Position numbers and translations under genes: made by a program | Notes under the pieces: model-generated | Seen by the model: the letters and a program-made list of their open reading frames with translations, nothing else | What the model was told of the DNA's origin: nothing | The model's database searches: none | Shown here: positions 3,424 to 28,883 of the stretch, piece by piece | Layout of the letters: every line of letters starts with the position of its first letter | Position numbering within the stretch: the stretch's first letter is position 1 | Assembly (NCBI GenBank): GCA_027451445.1 | Contig: DAIDJG010000409.1 | Coordinates: 1 to 40,235 of the forward strand | Length of the DNA stretch: 40,235 nt | Source of the DNA: Singulisphaera sp. | GTDB lineage: Bacteria > Planctomycetota > Planctomycetia > Isosphaerales > Isosphaeraceae | Direction of reading: 5' to 3'

Positions 3424-4185
3424 GTGAAACCGCGCACAAAACTGCCCCAGCCCACAGTGTCGCACGAACTGCGTTCCATTGACCTGCATACGTTGCAAGC
3501 GCTGTTCGACCTTGCGCCGGACGTCGCGTTTTTCGTCAAGGACTCGCACGGACGTTATGTCATCGTGAATCAGTCGCTGCTGTCCCGCCACGGACTCCGT
3601 CAACCCGGCGACGCCATCGGCAAGCGCCCGATCGATATCTGTCCCGGCGACTTTGGCCGCATACCCACCGACCAGGATCAACGAGTTCTTCGGACGGGCA
3701 AGCCGCTCGTCGAGCATCTGGAATTGCAGTGGTATCGCCCGCGCGAGCCTGTGTGGTGCCTCACGACAAAACTTCCGCTCCGGGACGACGAGGGAAGAAC
3801 GACCGGCATCATCGGGTTCTCTCGAGACGTTCGCACCCCTGTGCATACCGACGACATCCCACTGGCGTTCGCCAAAGTCATCGCCGAGTTTGAAGAGGCC
3901 CCCTCGATCGAGTGCTCACCCGCAACGCTCGCTGCGCGGTCTCGACTGTCTCCGTCTCACTTCGCCAAACTGACTCGAAGAATCTTCGGCCTGACACCCT
4001 CACAATTCATCGTGAAGTCCCGAATCGCTGCCGGCTCGCGCCTACTCCGCGAAACGAATCAACCAATTGCGGAGATTGCTCAGCTCTGCGGCTACCACGA
4101 CCAAAGTGCCTTCACCCGCGCGTTTCGAGCAGCCTCGGGTCTCACCCCGCTGGAATATCGCCGCCAGGAACGATCGACGGGATGA
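3424..4185 (+). CDS. AraC-family transcriptional regulator with PAS domain
   Basis: A 253-residue regulator from a GTG at 3424; there is no strong ribosome site, and the start is chosen from the promoter position and domain layout. Residues about 20-145 form a PAS fold (FDLAPDVAFFVKDSHG near the start, then the GFSRDV end typical of PAS). Residues about 165-253 form the two helix-turn-helix motifs of AraC proteins, with LAARSRLSPSHFAKL and IAEIAQLCGYHDQSAFTRAF followed by the usual GLTPLEYR tail. It reads away from the hydroxyproline dehydratase-like gene across a 109-bp gap, so control of that gene and of itself is likely. The PAS domain may sense the substrate or another small ligand; no ligand can be named from sequence. 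Confidence 0.85.
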   Translation: MKPRTKLPQPTVSHELRSIDLHTLQALFDLAPDVAFFVKDSHGRYVIVNQSLLSRHGLRQPGDAIGKRPIDICPGDFGRIPTDQDQRVLRTGKPLVEHLELQWYRPREPVWCLTTKLPLRDDEGRTTGIIGFSRDVRTPVHTDDIPLAFAKVIAEFEEAPSIECSPATLAARSRLSPSHFAKLTRRIFGLTPSQFIVKSRIAAGSRLLRETNQPIAEIAQLCGYHDQSAFTRAFRAASGLTPLEYRRQERSTG

Positions 4186-4344
4186 CGCGCGACATGCGAC
4201 TAAGGCCTACTTCGACCACCGTCGGCGATTCGAGACGTGCGTCAGCGTTCCCGCCCAAAACCGTGCGCATTTTTCGGATCGGCTGCATTATTCTCTTGGG
4301 AAGCGAGCGTGTGACAACGCAACCCGGACTGCCAGGGGTACCCG

Positions 4345-5709
4345 ATGAGACCAGTGGACCTTGAAGACCGCTCCGACCTGGATTTGCTCGACCTGTTCGT
4401 CGGGGAGCGTGACGAGGCTGCGTTCGAGGCGCTGACCGAGCGGCATGGCCGGATGGTTCGCGCCGTCTGTGCGCGAGTTCTGGGCGGTCCGTTGCTCGTT
4501 GACGACACCTACCAGGCGGTGTTTCTCGTTCTCGTCTTCCAAGCGCCCAAGGTTCGGCGAAAACTGAACGCGCAGGCCTCACTCGGCCCCTGGTTACATC
4601 GCGTCGCGCGCAATGCGGCGATCCAGGCCAAGCGGGCCGAGTCGGCGCGCAGACGGAGGGAGAACGTGGCGGGTCGTCGTCGACAGGAAGCGTCCGCAAC
4701 CGCCGATGGACCCTGGAGCGAAGCGCTCCCGCTCCTCGACGAGGAAATCCAGAGCCTGCCCGACCGCTATCGCACTGCGCTGATCCTCTGCGACCTCGAA
4801 GACCGGACCCAGCGCGAAGTTGCGGACCGGCTGGGACTCGCGTACGGAACGCTACGACGGCGGCTCGAAGAAGCGCGCGAATTACTGAGATACCGGTTGA
4901 TGAAACGCGGAGTCGCACTCTCCGCGATTCTCATGGCGGAGTTGCTCCGCGACCTCGGTTGCGAGGCGTCGACCGCGCCCTATATCCCGCCTCTGGGCGG
5001 AAGCAACGCCACGAGCTTCATCGGTTCCTGGCCCGCGAAGACCGTGATCCCCGCACGAGCCGGCGTCACGGCGAAGGCGTGCACACTGGGGCGGGCGGTG
5101 GTCCGGTCTCGCCTCCGCTATCATCTGACGGTCTCACTCGCCGGTGCGGTTGGGGTTGCGGTTGCCCTCACGCTCGCGCTCTCACCGTTTGCGGGTGCCA
5201 ACCCACGTCAGGCGGTAGCGTTAGATCCCAAACCGATCGCCGACTCTCCCGCTCCTCCCGATCATGAAACCAGCTTGCCTCAGCTCGCGAATGCCCCCAC
5301 CTCCAGGTCGCCAGGGACGGTCGCCGTTCCGCCGCCGAGGTCTGTTACGGGAAAAATCGACTCCCACTTCGTCGGCGAAATTGCAATCAACGGCGAGGTT
5401 ACACGCTTCGACAACCTTGAAGATTTCGAGCGTGCTCAGAAGCAAATGAGCGGCGCGCTTCCTGGCTTTGCAGCCCCGTTCGCAACGACTGGAGGGAACA
5501 ATCCGGGGTCCCGTCCTTACGGACCGTTCATGCCGCCGAACTCGTTTTCAGGAGGATTTAGCGCCTCAACTGGTTCGCTTACGTTTGAGGTCAAATTGGA
5601 GTGTTGCTGCAAGGATCTCGTAGATCAGATCGGTTCGAAGCCCGCGAGTTGTTGTTGCAAATCCTGTCCGACGTTTCCCGACCCACCGGGCCAACCCTTG
5701 AGGCGCTGA
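4345..5709 (+). CDS. ECF sigma factor with C-terminal membrane extension
   Basis: A 454-residue protein whose ATG is preceded by AGGGG at a 6-base spacing. Residues about 15-95 are sigma region 2 (ending PWLHRVARNAAI). Residues about 125-185 are region 4, with DLEDRTQREVADRLGLAYGT as the DNA-binding helix-turn-helix. A typical ECF factor stops near residue 190; this one continues. A single hydrophobic helix lies at about 261-284, followed by a Pro/Ser-rich stretch and a tail with two CCC clusters (residues about 420-422 and 436-438, plus C441). The layout suggests a membrane-tethered sigma factor whose tail lies outside the cytoplasm. No separate anti-sigma gene is adjacent; the downstream gene at 5753 encodes an exported protein and is probably co-transcribed. 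Confidence 0.88.
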   Translation: MRPVDLEDRSDLDLLDLFVGERDEAAFEALTERHGRMVRAVCARVLGGPLLVDDTYQAVFLVLVFQAPKVRRKLNAQASLGPWLHRVARNAAIQAKRAESARRRRENVAGRRRQEASATADGPWSEALPLLDEEIQSLPDRYRTALILCDLEDRTQREVADRLGLAYGTLRRRLEEARELLRYRLMKRGVALSAILMAELLRDLGCEASTAPYIPPLGGSNATSFIGSWPAKTVIPARAGVTAKACTLGRAVVRSRLRYHLTVSLAGAVGVAVALTLALSPFAGANPRQAVALDPKPIADSPAPPDHETSLPQLANAPTSRSPGTVAVPPPRSVTGKIDSHFVGEIAINGEVTRFDNLEDFERAQKQMSGALPGFAAPFATTGGNNPGSRPYGPFMPPNSFSGGFSASTGSLTFEVKLECCCKDLVDQIGSKPASCCCKSCPTFPDPPGQPLRR

Positions 5710-22892: not shown

Positions 22893-25391
22893 TCAGTCGG
22901 GGCCTTGCGCGGCCCTCGTGAGGTCCGCGATCTCGATCCGCCGGTAGTCGACGGGCGCGTCCTGGCTAACCAGCCCGAGGTACCCCGTCGTGCGATCCTT
23001 GCCCGGATGACGTTGGACGTTCATGAACTCGTGAACCTGGCTCAGGTCGGTGTCGAGAATGACAGCACCGTTCAACTCGACGCGAATCGTTGAGCCGCGA
23101 ACGGTGACGACTTGGGTGTTCCACTCGCCGGTCGGGCGGAGGTGGCCTCGCGCTGCGGCGACCATGCCGTAGGCCGATCCCGTGGCCTGGCGCGGGTCGA
23201 TATTGGGAAAACTCGGCTCGTCGAGAATCTGGATCTCGCACATCGCGATTTCCGACGCCAGCCCCGTCCCCGGGTAGCGAATGGCAAGTCCCCCGTTGCC
23301 TCTTGGCGTAAACCGATACTCGACGCGGACGACGAAATCCGAGTATTGATCGCGCGTATAAATGGTTAGCGGCTCGGGCGTTTTCGCGCGGAGGAGGCCG
23401 TCGCGGACCTCGAAGCCGTCGACATCGCCAGCCCAGCCGTCCAGATCCGTTCCGTTGAACAACGGACGGAACACCTCAGGCGTTCGCGCGCTGACGTGTT
23501 GAGCCGGCTCCGACGGGACGAGCGTGTAATTCTCCACAAGCCTTCGGGTCGACGGGGCGAAGGAGGAAATTGCAATCTCGCGTCCGTGGATGATCCCCTC
23601 GTTGTCAAAACCCTGCTTGCCCTGGATGGCTTTCGTGTCTTTGGCGAACCAGTTGATCCGGTCTTTCCTGATCGTGCCCTTGATGTTGTGCACGTTGGCA
23701 CCGGCGTCGAGCCTGGCACGGAACGATTCTCCCTGGCGCTCCAGGACCGTGAGGCGGGTATTGTTTTCGGGTGCGAGCCACACGGTACCCGGCTGGAACG
23801 GATCGGCGGGGGGCGGGACGACGGACTTTGGGGGTCGTGTGGTGGATGCGGTTACGACCGGTCGCGTTGCGACTGGAGTCGGCCCGGTCTTTAGCCACAG
23901 TGTATAGCAGGCCGGGGCGATACCGAACAGGGCCAGCGCGATCAATAGGTACGGGGGTGAAGACCGACGCCGCCGACGCACTCGCTTGGGCAGGGGACGC
24001 GAGACAATCGGGGGCAGTTGTTCCTCCGTCAACTCCTTGTGTCCGCCCTCGGGACGGTAGTCCGTCATGAGGTCCTCGAGCCGCAGGTCGGGATCGAAAC
24101 TCGGCACACGCAACGTCTCGCGGGCGAAAACCGTGGTGTCGCGATCGCGGCGGCCGCGCGGCGAGGCCTTCTTCATGATCCTCCCCGCGAAATCCTTCAA
24201 ATCCGCGCTCGCGTCGCCCGCCTCGCGCGCTGAGGCCCGGCAGGCCTCCAGCGCGAGGATCACGTCACTCATCGTCCCCGGCCGATCCGAGGGACTTTTC
24301 GACATCATTTTTTGGTAGATCGCCTCCACCGCCTGGGGGACTTCTGGCCGAGCGGCGCGCAGTGACGGTGCCGGGCGATCTTGATGGGCCAGGAGCCGTT
24401 TCAGAACGGAATCGCCCTCAAAGGGAGGCGCCCCGGTCAGGAGGAAAAACAACGTGCAGCCGAGGCTGTAGATGTCAGCGCGGCCGTCGACGGACCGGGC
24501 GTCGTCGGCCTGCTCGGGGGCGAGGAAATCCACGGTCCCCAGGTACGCGCCGCTCTCGGTCAGTTTGCCGGAGACCGTCCGGCCGAGCTGACCGGACTGC
24601 TCGATCACACGCGCCAGCCCGAGGTCGAGGACACGGACCGTACCTGCCGGATCGATCATGATGTTGCCGGGCTTGACGTCGCGATGAATCACCCCCTGCT
24701 TGTGCGCAGCCTCGAGCCCGCGCGCAGCCTGGATGACACAATGGAGCGCCAGCTTGAGGTCCATCGCGCCGCCCCTTTCCACGAGGGTGTCGAGGTCGCA
24801 GCCAGGGATGTATTCCATGGTCAGGTAATGGACCCCCCGATCCAGATTGGCCTCGAGCGCCGGGACGAGGTTTGGGTGGTGGAGTCGAGCGGCGACCTGG
24901 AACTCGCGGCGGAATCGCCTCAGCGCGTCCGGGTCGCGCCCGAACGACGGCGGGAGGATCTTCAGGGCAACGACCTGCCCCGACGCACGATGATTCGCCT
25001 TGAAAACGACTCCCATGCCGCCCACGCCGAGCTTGTCCGCCACGAGATAATCGCCGATCAGCAGACCCCGCGCCTTGCCCTGGAGAATTGCTCCCGCCTG
25101 ATACGCGGTCAGCTTTTTGGCTTGAACGAGCACCCGCGCCAGCCGCGAGGGGTCCTCCGAGGCAAGGCTCGCGTGACGTTCGAGCTCCTCGTCCGTCATG
25201 AGCTTCAAATCGCGAAGCGCCGCGAGTTCTTCGGACCACCCGACGACCGCAGCATGTGAGCCCGCACGCGGCGGGTTCCGGATCGTCGTCTCGGAGGAGG
25301 ATGCGTTCATCAGGCAGCGCGGGCAGAGCCCGAGCGGGGCATCCGGCGGCACGTGAAGACCGCACTCGGGACAGCAGGGCGTTGTGCTCAT
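22893..25391 (-). CDS. Ser/Thr kinase fused to a DUF1080 (3-keto-disaccharide hydrolase-like) domain
   Basis: An 832-residue protein. A zinc ribbon (C7, C10, C23, C26) leads a kinase domain at about 112-375. The domain has GVGGMGVVF as glycine loop, VIHRDVKPGN as catalytic loop, DLG instead of DFG, and APEQA; the catalytic Lys is in VALKIL. A membrane helix lies at about 477-497 (LLIALALFGIAPACYTLW), followed by a Pro/Thr linker and a small beta region. About 640-828 is a DUF1080 concanavalin-type domain (FNGTDLDGW, then NGGLAIRYPG, EIQILDE and GEWNTQVV). Secreted DUF1080 proteins act on sugars such as 3-keto-glycosides; here the domain would face the periplasm as sensor or anchor. The sigma gene at 25494 lies 102 bp upstream on the same strand. 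Confidence 0.88.
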   Translation of the reverse strand: MSTTPCCPECGLHVPPDAPLGLCPRCLMNASSSETTIRNPPRAGSHAAVVGWSEELAALRDLKLMTDEELERHASLASEDPSRLARVLVQAKKLTAYQAGAILQGKARGLLIGDYLVADKLGVGGMGVVFKANHRASGQVVALKILPPSFGRDPDALRRFRREFQVAARLHHPNLVPALEANLDRGVHYLTMEYIPGCDLDTLVERGGAMDLKLALHCVIQAARGLEAAHKQGVIHRDVKPGNIMIDPAGTVRVLDLGLARVIEQSGQLGRTVSGKLTESGAYLGTVDFLAPEQADDARSVDGRADIYSLGCTLFFLLTGAPPFEGDSVLKRLLAHQDRPAPSLRAARPEVPQAVEAIYQKMMSKSPSDRPGTMSDVILALEACRASAREAGDASADLKDFAGRIMKKASPRGRRDRDTTVFARETLRVPSFDPDLRLEDLMTDYRPEGGHKELTEEQLPPIVSRPLPKRVRRRRRSSPPYLLIALALFGIAPACYTLWLKTGPTPVATRPVVTASTTRPPKSVVPPPADPFQPGTVWLAPENNTRLTVLERQGESFRARLDAGANVHNIKGTIRKDRINWFAKDTKAIQGKQGFDNEGIIHGREIAISSFAPSTRRLVENYTLVPSEPAQHVSARTPEVFRPLFNGTDLDGWAGDVDGFEVRDGLLRAKTPEPLTIYTRDQYSDFVVRVEYRFTPRGNGGLAIRYPGTGLASEIAMCEIQILDEPSFPNIDPRQATGSAYGMVAAARGHLRPTGEWNTQVVTVRGSTIRVELNGAVILDTDLSQVHEFMNVQRHPGKDRTTGYLGLVSQDAPVDYRRIEIADLTRAAQGPD

Positions 25392-25493
25392 GGAAGGAGG
25401 CCCCCGGGAAACGCTTCGTTGTCGAGGGGGATCTCCGTCAGAGAAGGAAAATCCTCGATGTGTGACGTCGCGGTCTCTTTTTTTGTTTCTGGC

Positions 25494-26231
25494 TCAAACC
25501 GCCAGCGCGTTCAAGAGGATGCTGACCTCGTCGTCGACCTCGCTGGGATCGCCGATGGTGCCCGCGACCTCCTGTCGCAGCAACTCGCGGTAACGGCGAC
25601 GGAGGCGCGTCGCGGCAGCGCGGGCGGCCTCCTCGCTCAGGCCCAACTCGGCGGCGATCGCGGTGTACCCGGCGCGGCCGCCGTCGCCGAGCAGCGCGGA
25701 ACGCAACGCCGAAAACTGTCGGAGCTTACCAGCCTTCGCCATCTCGCCTTCGAGCTGGGCGAGGACACGTTCGAGCACCGTCAGAGCCCAACGACGCTCG
25801 TAGAGCCGCTCGGCGGTGAGTTCGTGCGCGGGCTCTCGGGCGTAGCGCGCCCTGGCGTCGTCCGGGTCGAGTGACAGCATCGCGCGACCGCCGCCGCGCT
25901 TCTGTGCACGCGCGCGTTCGGCTTGGTTCGCGAGATAATGCGTGCACGCCGCGAGCAGGAAGGAGCGGAATCGCCCCTTCCGTCGGTCGAGCGTGGCCAG
26001 GTCCTTTTTCTCCAGGAGGCGGGCGAAGAACCCTTGGACGAGGTCCTCGGCCGAAGCATCGTCGTAACCTTTGCGTCGGACGAACGCATAAAGCGGGTAC
26101 CAGTAGTCGCGGCAGAGCGACTCCAGCGCTTCGCGCGCGCGAGCCGAGTCGCCCCCTCGCACGGCGACGATCCGGCTCCAGCGCGTGGTGCGGAAGCGCT
26201 CGGGATGCTCTCGCGAACCCTCGTCAATCAT
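25494..26231 (-). CDS. ECF RNA polymerase sigma factor paired with DUF1080 kinase
   Basis: A 245-residue sigma factor. The ATG at 26231 is preferred to the longer frame because AGGA lies 8 bases upstream and the alignment with the paralogue at 21621 begins there (FRTTRWSRIV). Region 2 is visible as YWYPLYAFVRRKG, LVQGFFARLLE and RGRFRSFLLAA. Region 4 is YTAIAAELGLSEEAARAAATRLRRRYR. The end (TIGDPSEVDDEVSILLNAL) matches the end of the other factor. The pair 25494/22893 repeats the pair 21621/18281, so the two cassettes look like an old duplication with different sensor ends. Upstream 26232-26475 shows nothing notable. Confidence 0.9.
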   Translation of the reverse strand: MIDEGSREHPERFRTTRWSRIVAVRGGDSARAREALESLCRDYWYPLYAFVRRKGYDDASAEDLVQGFFARLLEKKDLATLDRRKGRFRSFLLAACTHYLANQAERARAQKRGGGRAMLSLDPDDARARYAREPAHELTAERLYERRWALTVLERVLAQLEGEMAKAGKLRQFSALRSALLGDGGRAGYTAIAAELGLSEEAARAAATRLRRRYRELLRQEVAGTIGDPSEVDDEVSILLNALAV

Positions 26232-26475
26232 GGCCGTGATCCTACGAGCGCCAACGCGAGTCCGTCCCCCTCCGGGCATTGAGATTCGGGTCGTGTGGCC
26301 CGTTCCTGGATCGCCCCTTGAGCTTTCGGATTCGCCGAGCCTGACCCTGCTCAGAGACGCGACTCTACCATAGAGGCTTGTAGGATTCTCGACTTACCAG
26401 GCTGATTTCGCTTGGGGGTCGGTATATCAGCCACGCACGAAATAGGGAGCGATTGAACGGAAGGAATTCCCGCGA

Positions 26476-26853
26476 TCACTCGAGGGCGCCCTGGTCGAGC
26501 AGGATGTCGAGGATCGCGGGTTTGATGTCCCTTGAAAGACTTGCCCCTTCCCGGATCCGGCTCAAGAGGACCTGAGCCACCGGTGTACCCCACAGGATCG
26601 CCGAAGCGTCCGCCATCGTCTCCAGGTCGGCCGCCTTGCATACGATGATGCGGTCATAAGCGATGCAGGTCAGGTGCTTGACCCACGGGTGCTCTCCGGG
26701 CTGGATCAAGCAGACCTTCTCCTTGGTGACGTCGTAGCTCGTCATCGTGACGAAGACGACCTGCTCGGCAAAATGTTCCGGGTCCGAGATTATGACCCGC
26801 AGGTGGCGGTCCGCAACATCCTTCTTGAGGAAGAATGTGTCGCCAGCCTTCAT
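26476..26853 (-). CDS. Small PemK/MazF-like protein, candidate toxin of Panacea pair
   Basis: A 125-residue protein whose ATG overlaps the stop of the Panacea gene as ATGA. It opens with KAGDTFFLKK and has HLRVIISDP, VVFVTMTS and GEHPWVKHLTCIAYDR, an order of beta strands like that of SH3-type PemK/MazF endoribonucleases; the usual RGxIW-type start is only partly matched. The C-terminal 35 residues are helical (IREGASLSRDIKPAILDIL). From its position after a Panacea-domain antitoxin I infer it to be the toxin. The fold assignment is tentative, and it may represent a distinct toxin family. Confidence 0.6.
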   Translation of the reverse strand: MKAGDTFFLKKDVADRHLRVIISDPEHFAEQVVFVTMTSYDVTKEKVCLIQPGEHPWVKHLTCIAYDRIIVCKAADLETMADASAILWGTPVAQVLLSRIREGASLSRDIKPAILDILLDQGALE

Positions 26854-27401
26854 GGCGTCTTCCCGAAGAGTGACTCCAGCTCGATCCGGTCCGCCTCATC
26901 TTGCAGGACGATTGGGATCAAGTCGCCCTTGCCCTGCTGGGCCAGGACCTCGGTCCACGGGATCGGCGTCGAGGCCGCTTCCTGAAAATGACTGAGCCAC
27001 TCCGGAAAGTCGTGCGAGACCTCCGAGAGCTCCTCGTCAGTTACGTCACGGTAGCGGTTCGTCGCTTCGATGAGCTTCTCCGTCTCCCGCTTCGTGAGCT
27101 CCCTCCGATCGGGCTTCCTCTTGAGGCAAACCTTGTACCCCGCGCTGTCGAAGTACTCACGCCAGGCGTCGCTGTCTTGAGCGATACCTTTGATAAGGTC
27201 GTAGACATGGGAAAGGACGGGCCCGTATTTCATGGCTACGGCCACGTCACCGGTGAGGGGCCGACCGGATTCGGTGAGCAACTCCCGATCGACGATGTAG
27301 AGCAGCTTCAGGAGGCGCATCCTGCTGATCGGAGAGCCCTCGAGCTCAAGAAGTAGCCCTGTCGCCTGGATGGTCTTCTCGAGGTCGAATCGAAAGTGCA
27401 T
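26850..27401 (-). CDS. Panacea-domain antitoxin (SocA/DUF4065-like)
   Basis: A 183-residue protein. The ATG at 27401 has GAGGG 6 bases upstream and lies about 37 bases from the predicted transcript start. The Panacea/DUF4065 core is clear: RLLKLLYIVDRELL at about 25-38, GRPLTGDVAVAMKYGPVLSHVYDLIKG at about 43-70, then a helical region with DEELSEVSHDFPEW. The domain is known as a broad antitoxin module that neutralises many unrelated toxins by direct contact. The C-terminal part is probably specific for the partner at 26476. Confidence 0.82.
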   Translation of the reverse strand: MHFRFDLEKTIQATGLLLELEGSPISRMRLLKLLYIVDRELLTESGRPLTGDVAVAMKYGPVLSHVYDLIKGIAQDSDAWREYFDSAGYKVCLKRKPDRRELTKRETEKLIEATNRYRDVTDEELSEVSHDFPEWLSHFQEAASTPIPWTEVLAQQGKGDLIPIVLQDEADRIELESLFGKTP

Positions 27402-27444: not shown

Positions 27445-27473
27445 ATCTTAGGCATCAAACTGACTTCGGTCAA
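27445..27473 (-). promoter_or_regulatory. Promoter of the Panacea operon
   Basis: On the minus strand TTGACC (27473-27468) and TAAGAT (27450-27445) are separated by exactly 17 bases. The start point would be near 27438. No other frame intervenes before the ATG at 27401. Confidence 0.6.
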
Positions 27474-27530: not shown

Positions 27531-27899
27531 AATCGCAGTGCGTTCCGCCACATCGAACGCGAGGCCGACGCCGGCTTGCGGTGCTGGACGATCCGCGAAT
27601 TGACCTCCGGCGAGCAACTCCGCCGGGAGGGAGCAGCCTTGCGGCATTGTGTGGCGAGCTACGCACGCGCGTGCGCCCGCCGCAACACGTCAATCTGGTC
27701 GATGCGGTTCGAGAACGGCGAGCGGCGGTTCCGGGTCATGACGATCGAAGTGGACCGCGCCACACGAACCATCCGACAGGCCCGGGGTCAACGCAATGCG
27801 ACGCCGAACGACAAGGCACTCGGCGTTCTGAGGGTGTGGGCGGGACGCGAGGGACTGCGGATGGAATTCTGGAACAACGGAGCCCTCATCGTGGAATGA
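27531..27899 (+). pseudogene. PcfJ-like protein, 5'-truncated remnant
   Basis: The readable part (NRSAFRHIEREADAG onward) contains WTIRELTSGEQLRREG, ALRHCVASYA and NTSIWSMRF, the signature of PcfJ-like proteins found on conjugative and other mobile elements. It ends at a natural-looking TGA. There is no ATG or ribosome site before the homologous part; the first start-like codon, TTG at 27576, already lies inside the domain. Several hundred residues of a normal PcfJ are missing. The break lies about 60 bp from the Panacea promoter, so the toxin-antitoxin module may have replaced the 5' part. Confidence 0.65.
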
Positions 27900-28020: not shown

Positions 28021-28656
28021 TCACTGTGCTTCAGGCTCCGGCACCACCCCCGTTTCAACCGCGATGCGCAACTCCTCCGGACTGGCGTCCCAGGTCGCCT
28101 GGTAGGTCGATTCGAGTGGGACCATGACATGAAGGTCATTCGTCAAGAAGAGGGGCATGTCGGGCAGTGCCTCACCAACAGCCACCGGCTCGATGTAGGC
28201 CGTGCGCTCGCCGCCGGTCTCATACGAGACCAGAATCAGGTCCTTCCCTTCGGGAAACGTGAATTCTTCCTCAACGATCTCATCCCAGATCACCTTGTGA
28301 ATTCCGTACGGATCACGCTGAGTCGGATGGAACAGATCGATGATCAGCACGTGAATGCCTTTACGGAGGCAGTCTACGGTCTTGTCGACAAAATCCCGGA
28401 GGGCCGCCCGGCTGTCCTTGTTTCCGGGCGAGACGATTTCGATCACAGCAATGATTCGGCCCAGGTGGTGCTTCACGACGATGCGGTTCGCCCGGCTGGC
28501 GTAGATCTCGTTCGGCCCGCCCCGTTGTTCGACGAAGGCCGCAAACCCCCTGGATAGGTAGCCGGAGTTGAGCGCGTCCTTGATCCGGATCGACCAGCTT
28601 TGGTGGAAGTCGTGAAACAGCCCAGAGGGTACTCGGGACCAATCGTGGATCGGCAT
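28021..28656 (-). CDS. DUF4058-family protein, short form
   Basis: A 211-residue protein. The ATG at 28656 has GGAG 8 bases upstream and gives the usual start MPIHDWSRV. Family segments visible are LFHDFHQSWSIRIKDALN, AVIEIVSPGNKDSR, HVLIIDLFHPTQRDPYGIHK and PLESTYQATWD. Between FVEQRGGPNE and YASRANRIVV the protein is shorter than members I remember by some 50 residues, so an in-frame deletion is possible. The function is unknown; such proteins are numerous in planctomycetes and cyanobacteria. The flanking gaps 27900-28020 and 28657-28883 show nothing else. Confidence 0.8.
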   Translation of the reverse strand: MPIHDWSRVPSGLFHDFHQSWSIRIKDALNSGYLSRGFAAFVEQRGGPNEIYASRANRIVVKHHLGRIIAVIEIVSPGNKDSRAALRDFVDKTVDCLRKGIHVLIIDLFHPTQRDPYGIHKVIWDEIVEEEFTFPEGKDLILVSYETGGERTAYIEPVAVGEALPDMPLFLTNDLHVMVPLESTYQATWDASPEELRIAVETGVVPEPEAQ

Positions 28657-28883
28657 CGCAATTTCTCCGCAGCGGGCATTATACCCGCCGTCGCTCCCGG
28701 ATCGCTTCGCGACTTTACGGCCGTGTTTCGCCCCCATTCCTCTGATGGGTCAACGAAGGCTGTGGTATCCGTTTCTTTGCATTAGTCCTTACCCTTAAGC
28801 GGATTACCGGCCACACAGGTAAGCGATCCTGGTGCTGCGAGCATTGGCCACGGTGTCCCGCGGCCGGACGCGGCTGCGGGATT

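Follow-up and report, generated by a model that had tools for sequence, protein, structure and literature searches.

Panacea is a hyperpromiscuous antitoxin domain for which no fewer than 88 combinations with partners have been described (Kurata et al., 2022; PMC8832971), and antitoxins that consist of this domain alone neutralize the toxin by direct binding (PMC10440598). The described system closest to the locus studied here is PanAT of Pseudomonas moraviensis, which is composed of the toxin PanT (WP_083201923.1) and the antitoxin PanA (WP_083354365.1). Its PanT has no CDD domain and is MazF-like by HHpred (Kurata et al., 2022; PMC8832971). In E. coli, this PanT is toxic, inhibits protein synthesis, and is both rescued and bound by PanA (PMC8832971). 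Of the 25 PanTs that Kurata et al. assayed, eight did not prove toxic in E. coli (PMC8832971). A Panacea antitoxin is also found in SocAB of Caulobacter, a type VI system in which SocB, the toxin, is delivered by SocA to ClpXP; the PanAs that Kurata et al. examined, by contrast, needed neither ClpXP nor Lon (PMC8832971). The other point of comparison is provided by the MazF/PemK/Kid mRNA interferases (PF02452), which are paired with MazE/PemI antitoxins; the catalytic residues of Bacillus MazF are Arg25 and Thr48 (PMC7354611). The general principle that Panacea neutralizes MazF-like toxins has already been published. Here, we describe an antitoxin-first Panacea pair from a planctomycete chromosome, which is probably a PanAT type II module whose PanT is predicted to adopt the MazF fold, would inhibit translation by cutting RNA and would be bound by PanA. 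Beyond the published principle, the novelty lies in the planctomycete members, an Arg-to-His exchange at the putative active site and a rare tail-to-tail arrangement of the two genes.

The window analysed is a stretch of 40,235 nucleotides from Singulisphaera sp. (contig DAIDJG010000409.1). The initial annotation had described two ORFs with an ATGA overlap and the antitoxin gene in front, and both ORFs were confirmed, on the minus strand, at the positions given there. The gene panA (26850–27401) encodes a Panacea (DUF4065) antitoxin of 183 amino acids; it is followed by panT (26476–26853), which encodes a MazF/PemK-fold partner of 125 amino acids and putative toxin. The start codon of panT and the stop codon of panA share the ATGA at 26850–26853, making translational coupling of the two genes probable. 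Translation of panA starts at an ATG at 27401, just downstream of a GAGGGA run resembling a Shine–Dalgarno sequence. The promoter proposed for the pair, TTGACC-17-TAAGAT, is present on the same strand at 27473–27445; however, it matches only 9/12 bases, and one site was found where 0.4 would be expected by chance, so that taken alone it is weak evidence. In the genome as a whole, Panacea and this PanT family are each represented by a single gene, alongside seven PF02452 MazF/PemK matches.

The assignment of the first protein is straightforward. PanA carries the Panacea/DUF4065 domain, matching PF13274 with an E-value of 2.1e-22 and 80.6 bits against a cut-off of 25.7, which bears out the clear Panacea core noted at the outset. 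Its AlphaFold2 model (pLDDT 95.4, pTM 0.90) is a compact, helical, stand-alone domain with two C-terminal helices, in which neither an HTH nor a PAD1 extension is seen. A sequence search of solved structures with the single PanA protein returned chance matches only. Similarity to SocA is weak, at 32.8 bits against the cut-off of 190 of the NCBIfam SocA equivalog; the score being far under this cut-off, PanA was rejected as a SocA equivalent.

The partner was less easily placed. As the initial annotation had stated, it lacks a clean family signature, and no Pfam, NCBIfam or PADLOC model matches it. It does match phrog_19071 of the PHROGs collection (E 2.6e-11), as do all 32 aligned relatives. 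PHROGs assigns no function to this family, which the present analysis connects to PanA and to the MazF fold. Members occur in planctomycetes, Pseudomonadota, cyanobacteria, plasmids and many prophages. A tblastn search of phages and plasmids with the window PanT gave weak matches. In the nine neighbourhoods inspected, a Panacea gene lay immediately upstream in every case but one, and several of these genes bore that annotation. The exception, on a Citrobacter plasmid, was dropped as a chance match within a conjugation gene region. A scan of viral contigs with the window PanT alone found no relative. With the family alignment, 80 loci were recovered from viral contigs and 32 from GTDB genomes, and 17 of 392 planctomycete genomes contained members, with two of the 17 being marginal matches. 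Of 369 gammaproteobacterial genomes, 3 carry a member, the search centre being among the three, and this suggests a sporadic, mobile gene. Among complete E. coli genomes, 205 of 5426 carry a member, always on the chromosome, and among the rows listed the protein is a 'hypothetical protein' in RefSeq. The window PanT is approximately 19–28% identical to the aligned proteobacterial members.

The association between the two genes is conserved in more than 100 loci from several phyla. PanA adjoins the partner in 91 of the 112 loci fetched from genomes and viral contigs, and in the remaining 21 the partner lies at or within approximately 0.25 kb of a contig end; the pairing in the window is therefore far from a chance association. 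Among the strong full-length planctomycete loci, PanA is next door in 15/15. These counts leave out two marginal matches (L027 and L028) and the fragments of one planctomycete genome (L026/L030, G305), where PanA is absent despite room for it. There were 70 distinct pairs, 65 of which are on the same strand with PanA first, and 37 of these share the 4-nucleotide ATGA overlap of the window. PanA never follows PanT on the same strand. Distance matrices of PanA and PanT are correlated with r = 0.92 over 69 pairs and r = 0.46 over the 30 pairs that are less than 50% identical, and in neither case did any of 2000 permutations reach this value. Such correlated divergence is as expected if the pairs travel together, and shared host ancestry also contributes.

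The five other distinct pairs are arranged tail-to-tail: L013/L185 (3796–4170 on the plus strand and 4167–4742 on the minus strand), L022, L025, L029/L188 and L059 (2045–2623). Four belong to one planctomycete genus (g121, three genomes) and one to Calothrix rhizosoleniae. Since the genes converge, a common transcript for toxin and antitoxin is impossible in these pairs, which is unusual for a type II system.

A link from this family to an experimentally characterized toxin is provided by the N-terminus published for the P. moraviensis antitoxin. The NCBI entry for that PanA misses ten N-terminal residues, MIFSEQKVAQ (PMC8832971). We found a PanA starting with exactly these residues followed by MAAYFL in Pseudomonas phage Sirocco and in two genomes of presumed Pseudomonadaceae, a set whose family centre was chosen by OprI match and in which 2 of 398 genomes contained the pattern; viral contigs did not contain it. 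In all three loci, PanA has a GTG start codon, and its next Met lies exactly at the published truncation point. The next gene encodes a phrog_19071-type PanT in 3/3 cases (profile E 2e-36 to 2e-40). Because all three loci found with the published PanA N-terminus carry this type of partner, we assign the window PanT to the P. moraviensis-type family confidently, though not with certainty, the link running through the antitoxin N-terminus and not through WP_083201923.1 itself. By the same sequence argument, the window PanT is very probably a MazF-fold translation inhibitor of the P. moraviensis type. Like the validated system, the window has an antitoxin-first Panacea pair with a MazF-like partner that has neither a CDD nor a Pfam domain; the difference is that it resides in a planctomycete chromosome and is strongly diverged. 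The suggestion that the partner may define a new type is thus not supported, as it belongs to a large family with Pseudomonas members behind PanAs that have the N-terminus published for the validated P. moraviensis PanA. In the Sirocco genome (OR683410), the PanT gene (1487–1890 of the locus) is unannotated, and a short antisense ORF (1741–1875) is annotated instead.

The fold of PanT was examined by structure prediction and by profile comparison. The AlphaFold2 model, built from 32 aligned sequences, has a pLDDT of 93.8 and a pTM of 0.87. A Foldseek search of the PDB placed only MazF/PemK-family toxins among the best 50 matches (probability approximately 1.0, TM 0.5–0.6), with a best E-value of only 2.5e-3. 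By VIA-align, the Z score reaches 9.7 for MazF-mt3 and 9.4 for CcdB, which has the same barrel fold. This near tie is what speaks for a CcdB-like PanT that would poison DNA gyrase, although similar Z scores are as expected for members of one superfold. To tell the two apart, the family profile was compared with both. Against 23 planctomycete PF02452 proteins it aligned end-to-end over 95 columns, scoring 27.5 trimmed and 25.6 untrimmed; the best of 200 column shuffles scored 16.5 and the reversed profile 10.6. Against six CcdB proteins, hhalign showed no signal, with a probability of 0.1 over 19 columns. Moreover, the validated relative stops translation and not replication (PMC8832971). With the Foldseek matches, the profile comparison and this translation block all against it, gyrase poisoning was rejected as a leading idea and appears very improbable. 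PanT is thus predicted to have the PemK-like barrel, and the PemK-like strand order read from the sequence at first agrees with the predicted fold, Foldseek and the profile-profile comparison. Together with the conserved pairing, these results uphold the original view of a complete Panacea toxin–antitoxin-type pair with a PemK/MazF-like partner. The comparison with MazF/PemK that had been proposed as a check came out in two parts: the MazF fold and the PemK profile alignment were obtained, but PF02452 is not matched above its cut-off by the window PanT or by any of the 32 relatives, the best of which reaches an E-value of 0.0094. Membership in PF02452 proper was rejected on this ground. Searches of solved-structure sequences with the single protein and with the profile gave chance matches only.

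Although PanT shares the predicted fold and the strand order of the MazF/PemK/Kid toxins and its profile aligns with theirs over the full length, it differs from them in more than its Panacea antitoxin. In the profile alignment, PanT Thr38 falls on the catalytic Thr (Thr48 of Bacillus MazF) and is Thr or Ser in 30/30 divergent members, whereas the catalytic Arg before strand 2 (Arg25 of Bacillus MazF) is replaced by His17, which is His in 30/30. Some proteobacterial members were fetched via His-containing motifs; the planctomycete members were fetched via the profile, and all full-length ones keep His17. Further positions conserved among the divergent members are C48 (26/30), D/E54 (27/30), H55 (29/30) and Y66 (28/30). 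As the His that replaces the catalytic Arg is family-wide, the RNase chemistry of PanT is not assured, and this exchange is the chief ground for doubting it. The pair could be a PanAT module in which the MazF fold, fitted with a His/Thr/Cys/His site, has come to serve some other activity or to act on a different RNA, such as tRNA or rRNA. The invariant His, the conserved C48, D/E54, H55 and Y66, which have no obvious MazF counterpart, and the lack of a Pfam PemK match above cut-off in all 32 members searched all favour this. Nevertheless, we consider it rather unlikely: the Thr/Ser position is retained, the closest validated relative selectively blocks protein synthesis, as expected of an RNase (PMC8832971), and MazF4 of M. 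tuberculosis is functional although Lys replaces the Arg (PMC7354611). It might also be that the pair is decayed or silent in its host, the genes being present without any toxin–antitoxin action. Each gene is in single copy in the genome, a truncated PcfJ-like gene adjoins the pair and the promoter score is weak. However, both reading frames and the ATGA overlap are intact, the residues conserved in the family are present and confident models were obtained for both proteins, which makes decay improbable.

We regard a PanAT module with a MazF-fold PanT as the most probable reading of the locus, for which the following course of events can be proposed. A single transcript would start from the promoter-like site upstream of panA. 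PanA would be translated first, with translation of panT coupled to it via the ATGA overlap. PanT, which would share its family with the validated P. moraviensis toxin, would inhibit translation by cutting RNA in its cleft, where His17 and Thr38 occupy the places of the catalytic Arg and Thr of MazF. PanA would bind PanT directly and hold it inactive until a trigger, possibly infection by a phage or the element being lost, freed or activated PanT.

With this proposal, a common 'hypothetical protein' encoded beside Panacea antitoxins, including the one in the E. coli genomes mentioned above, receives a name and a mechanism that can be tested, and the range of the P. moraviensis-type PanT is extended to planctomycetes. 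The exchange of His for Arg in a MazF-fold active site poses a clean biochemical question. Tentatively, the phrog_19071 family might even constitute a distinct class of Panacea-tied MazF-fold toxins, in which the invariant His for Arg and the Cys/His/Tyr set would bring a different cleavage chemistry or a non-mRNA target, and which would have been spread by prophages and left unannotated in approximately 4% of complete E. coli genomes (205/5426); we consider this broader interpretation less likely than not.

The surroundings of the window pair showed no prophage signs in the immediate stretch. On the plus strand at 27576–27899, approximately 0.1 kb from the PanA promoter and pointing away from it, lies an N-terminally truncated PcfJ-like ORF (PF14284, E 5.6e-15, profile positions 68–140 of 147), which resembles the remnant of a gene from a mobile element. 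The flanks proper lie at 28024–28737 and 22893–26240 on the minus strand; one side carries the gene for a DUF4058 protein, the other those for an ECF sigma factor and, adjoining it, a Ser/Thr kinase-like protein.
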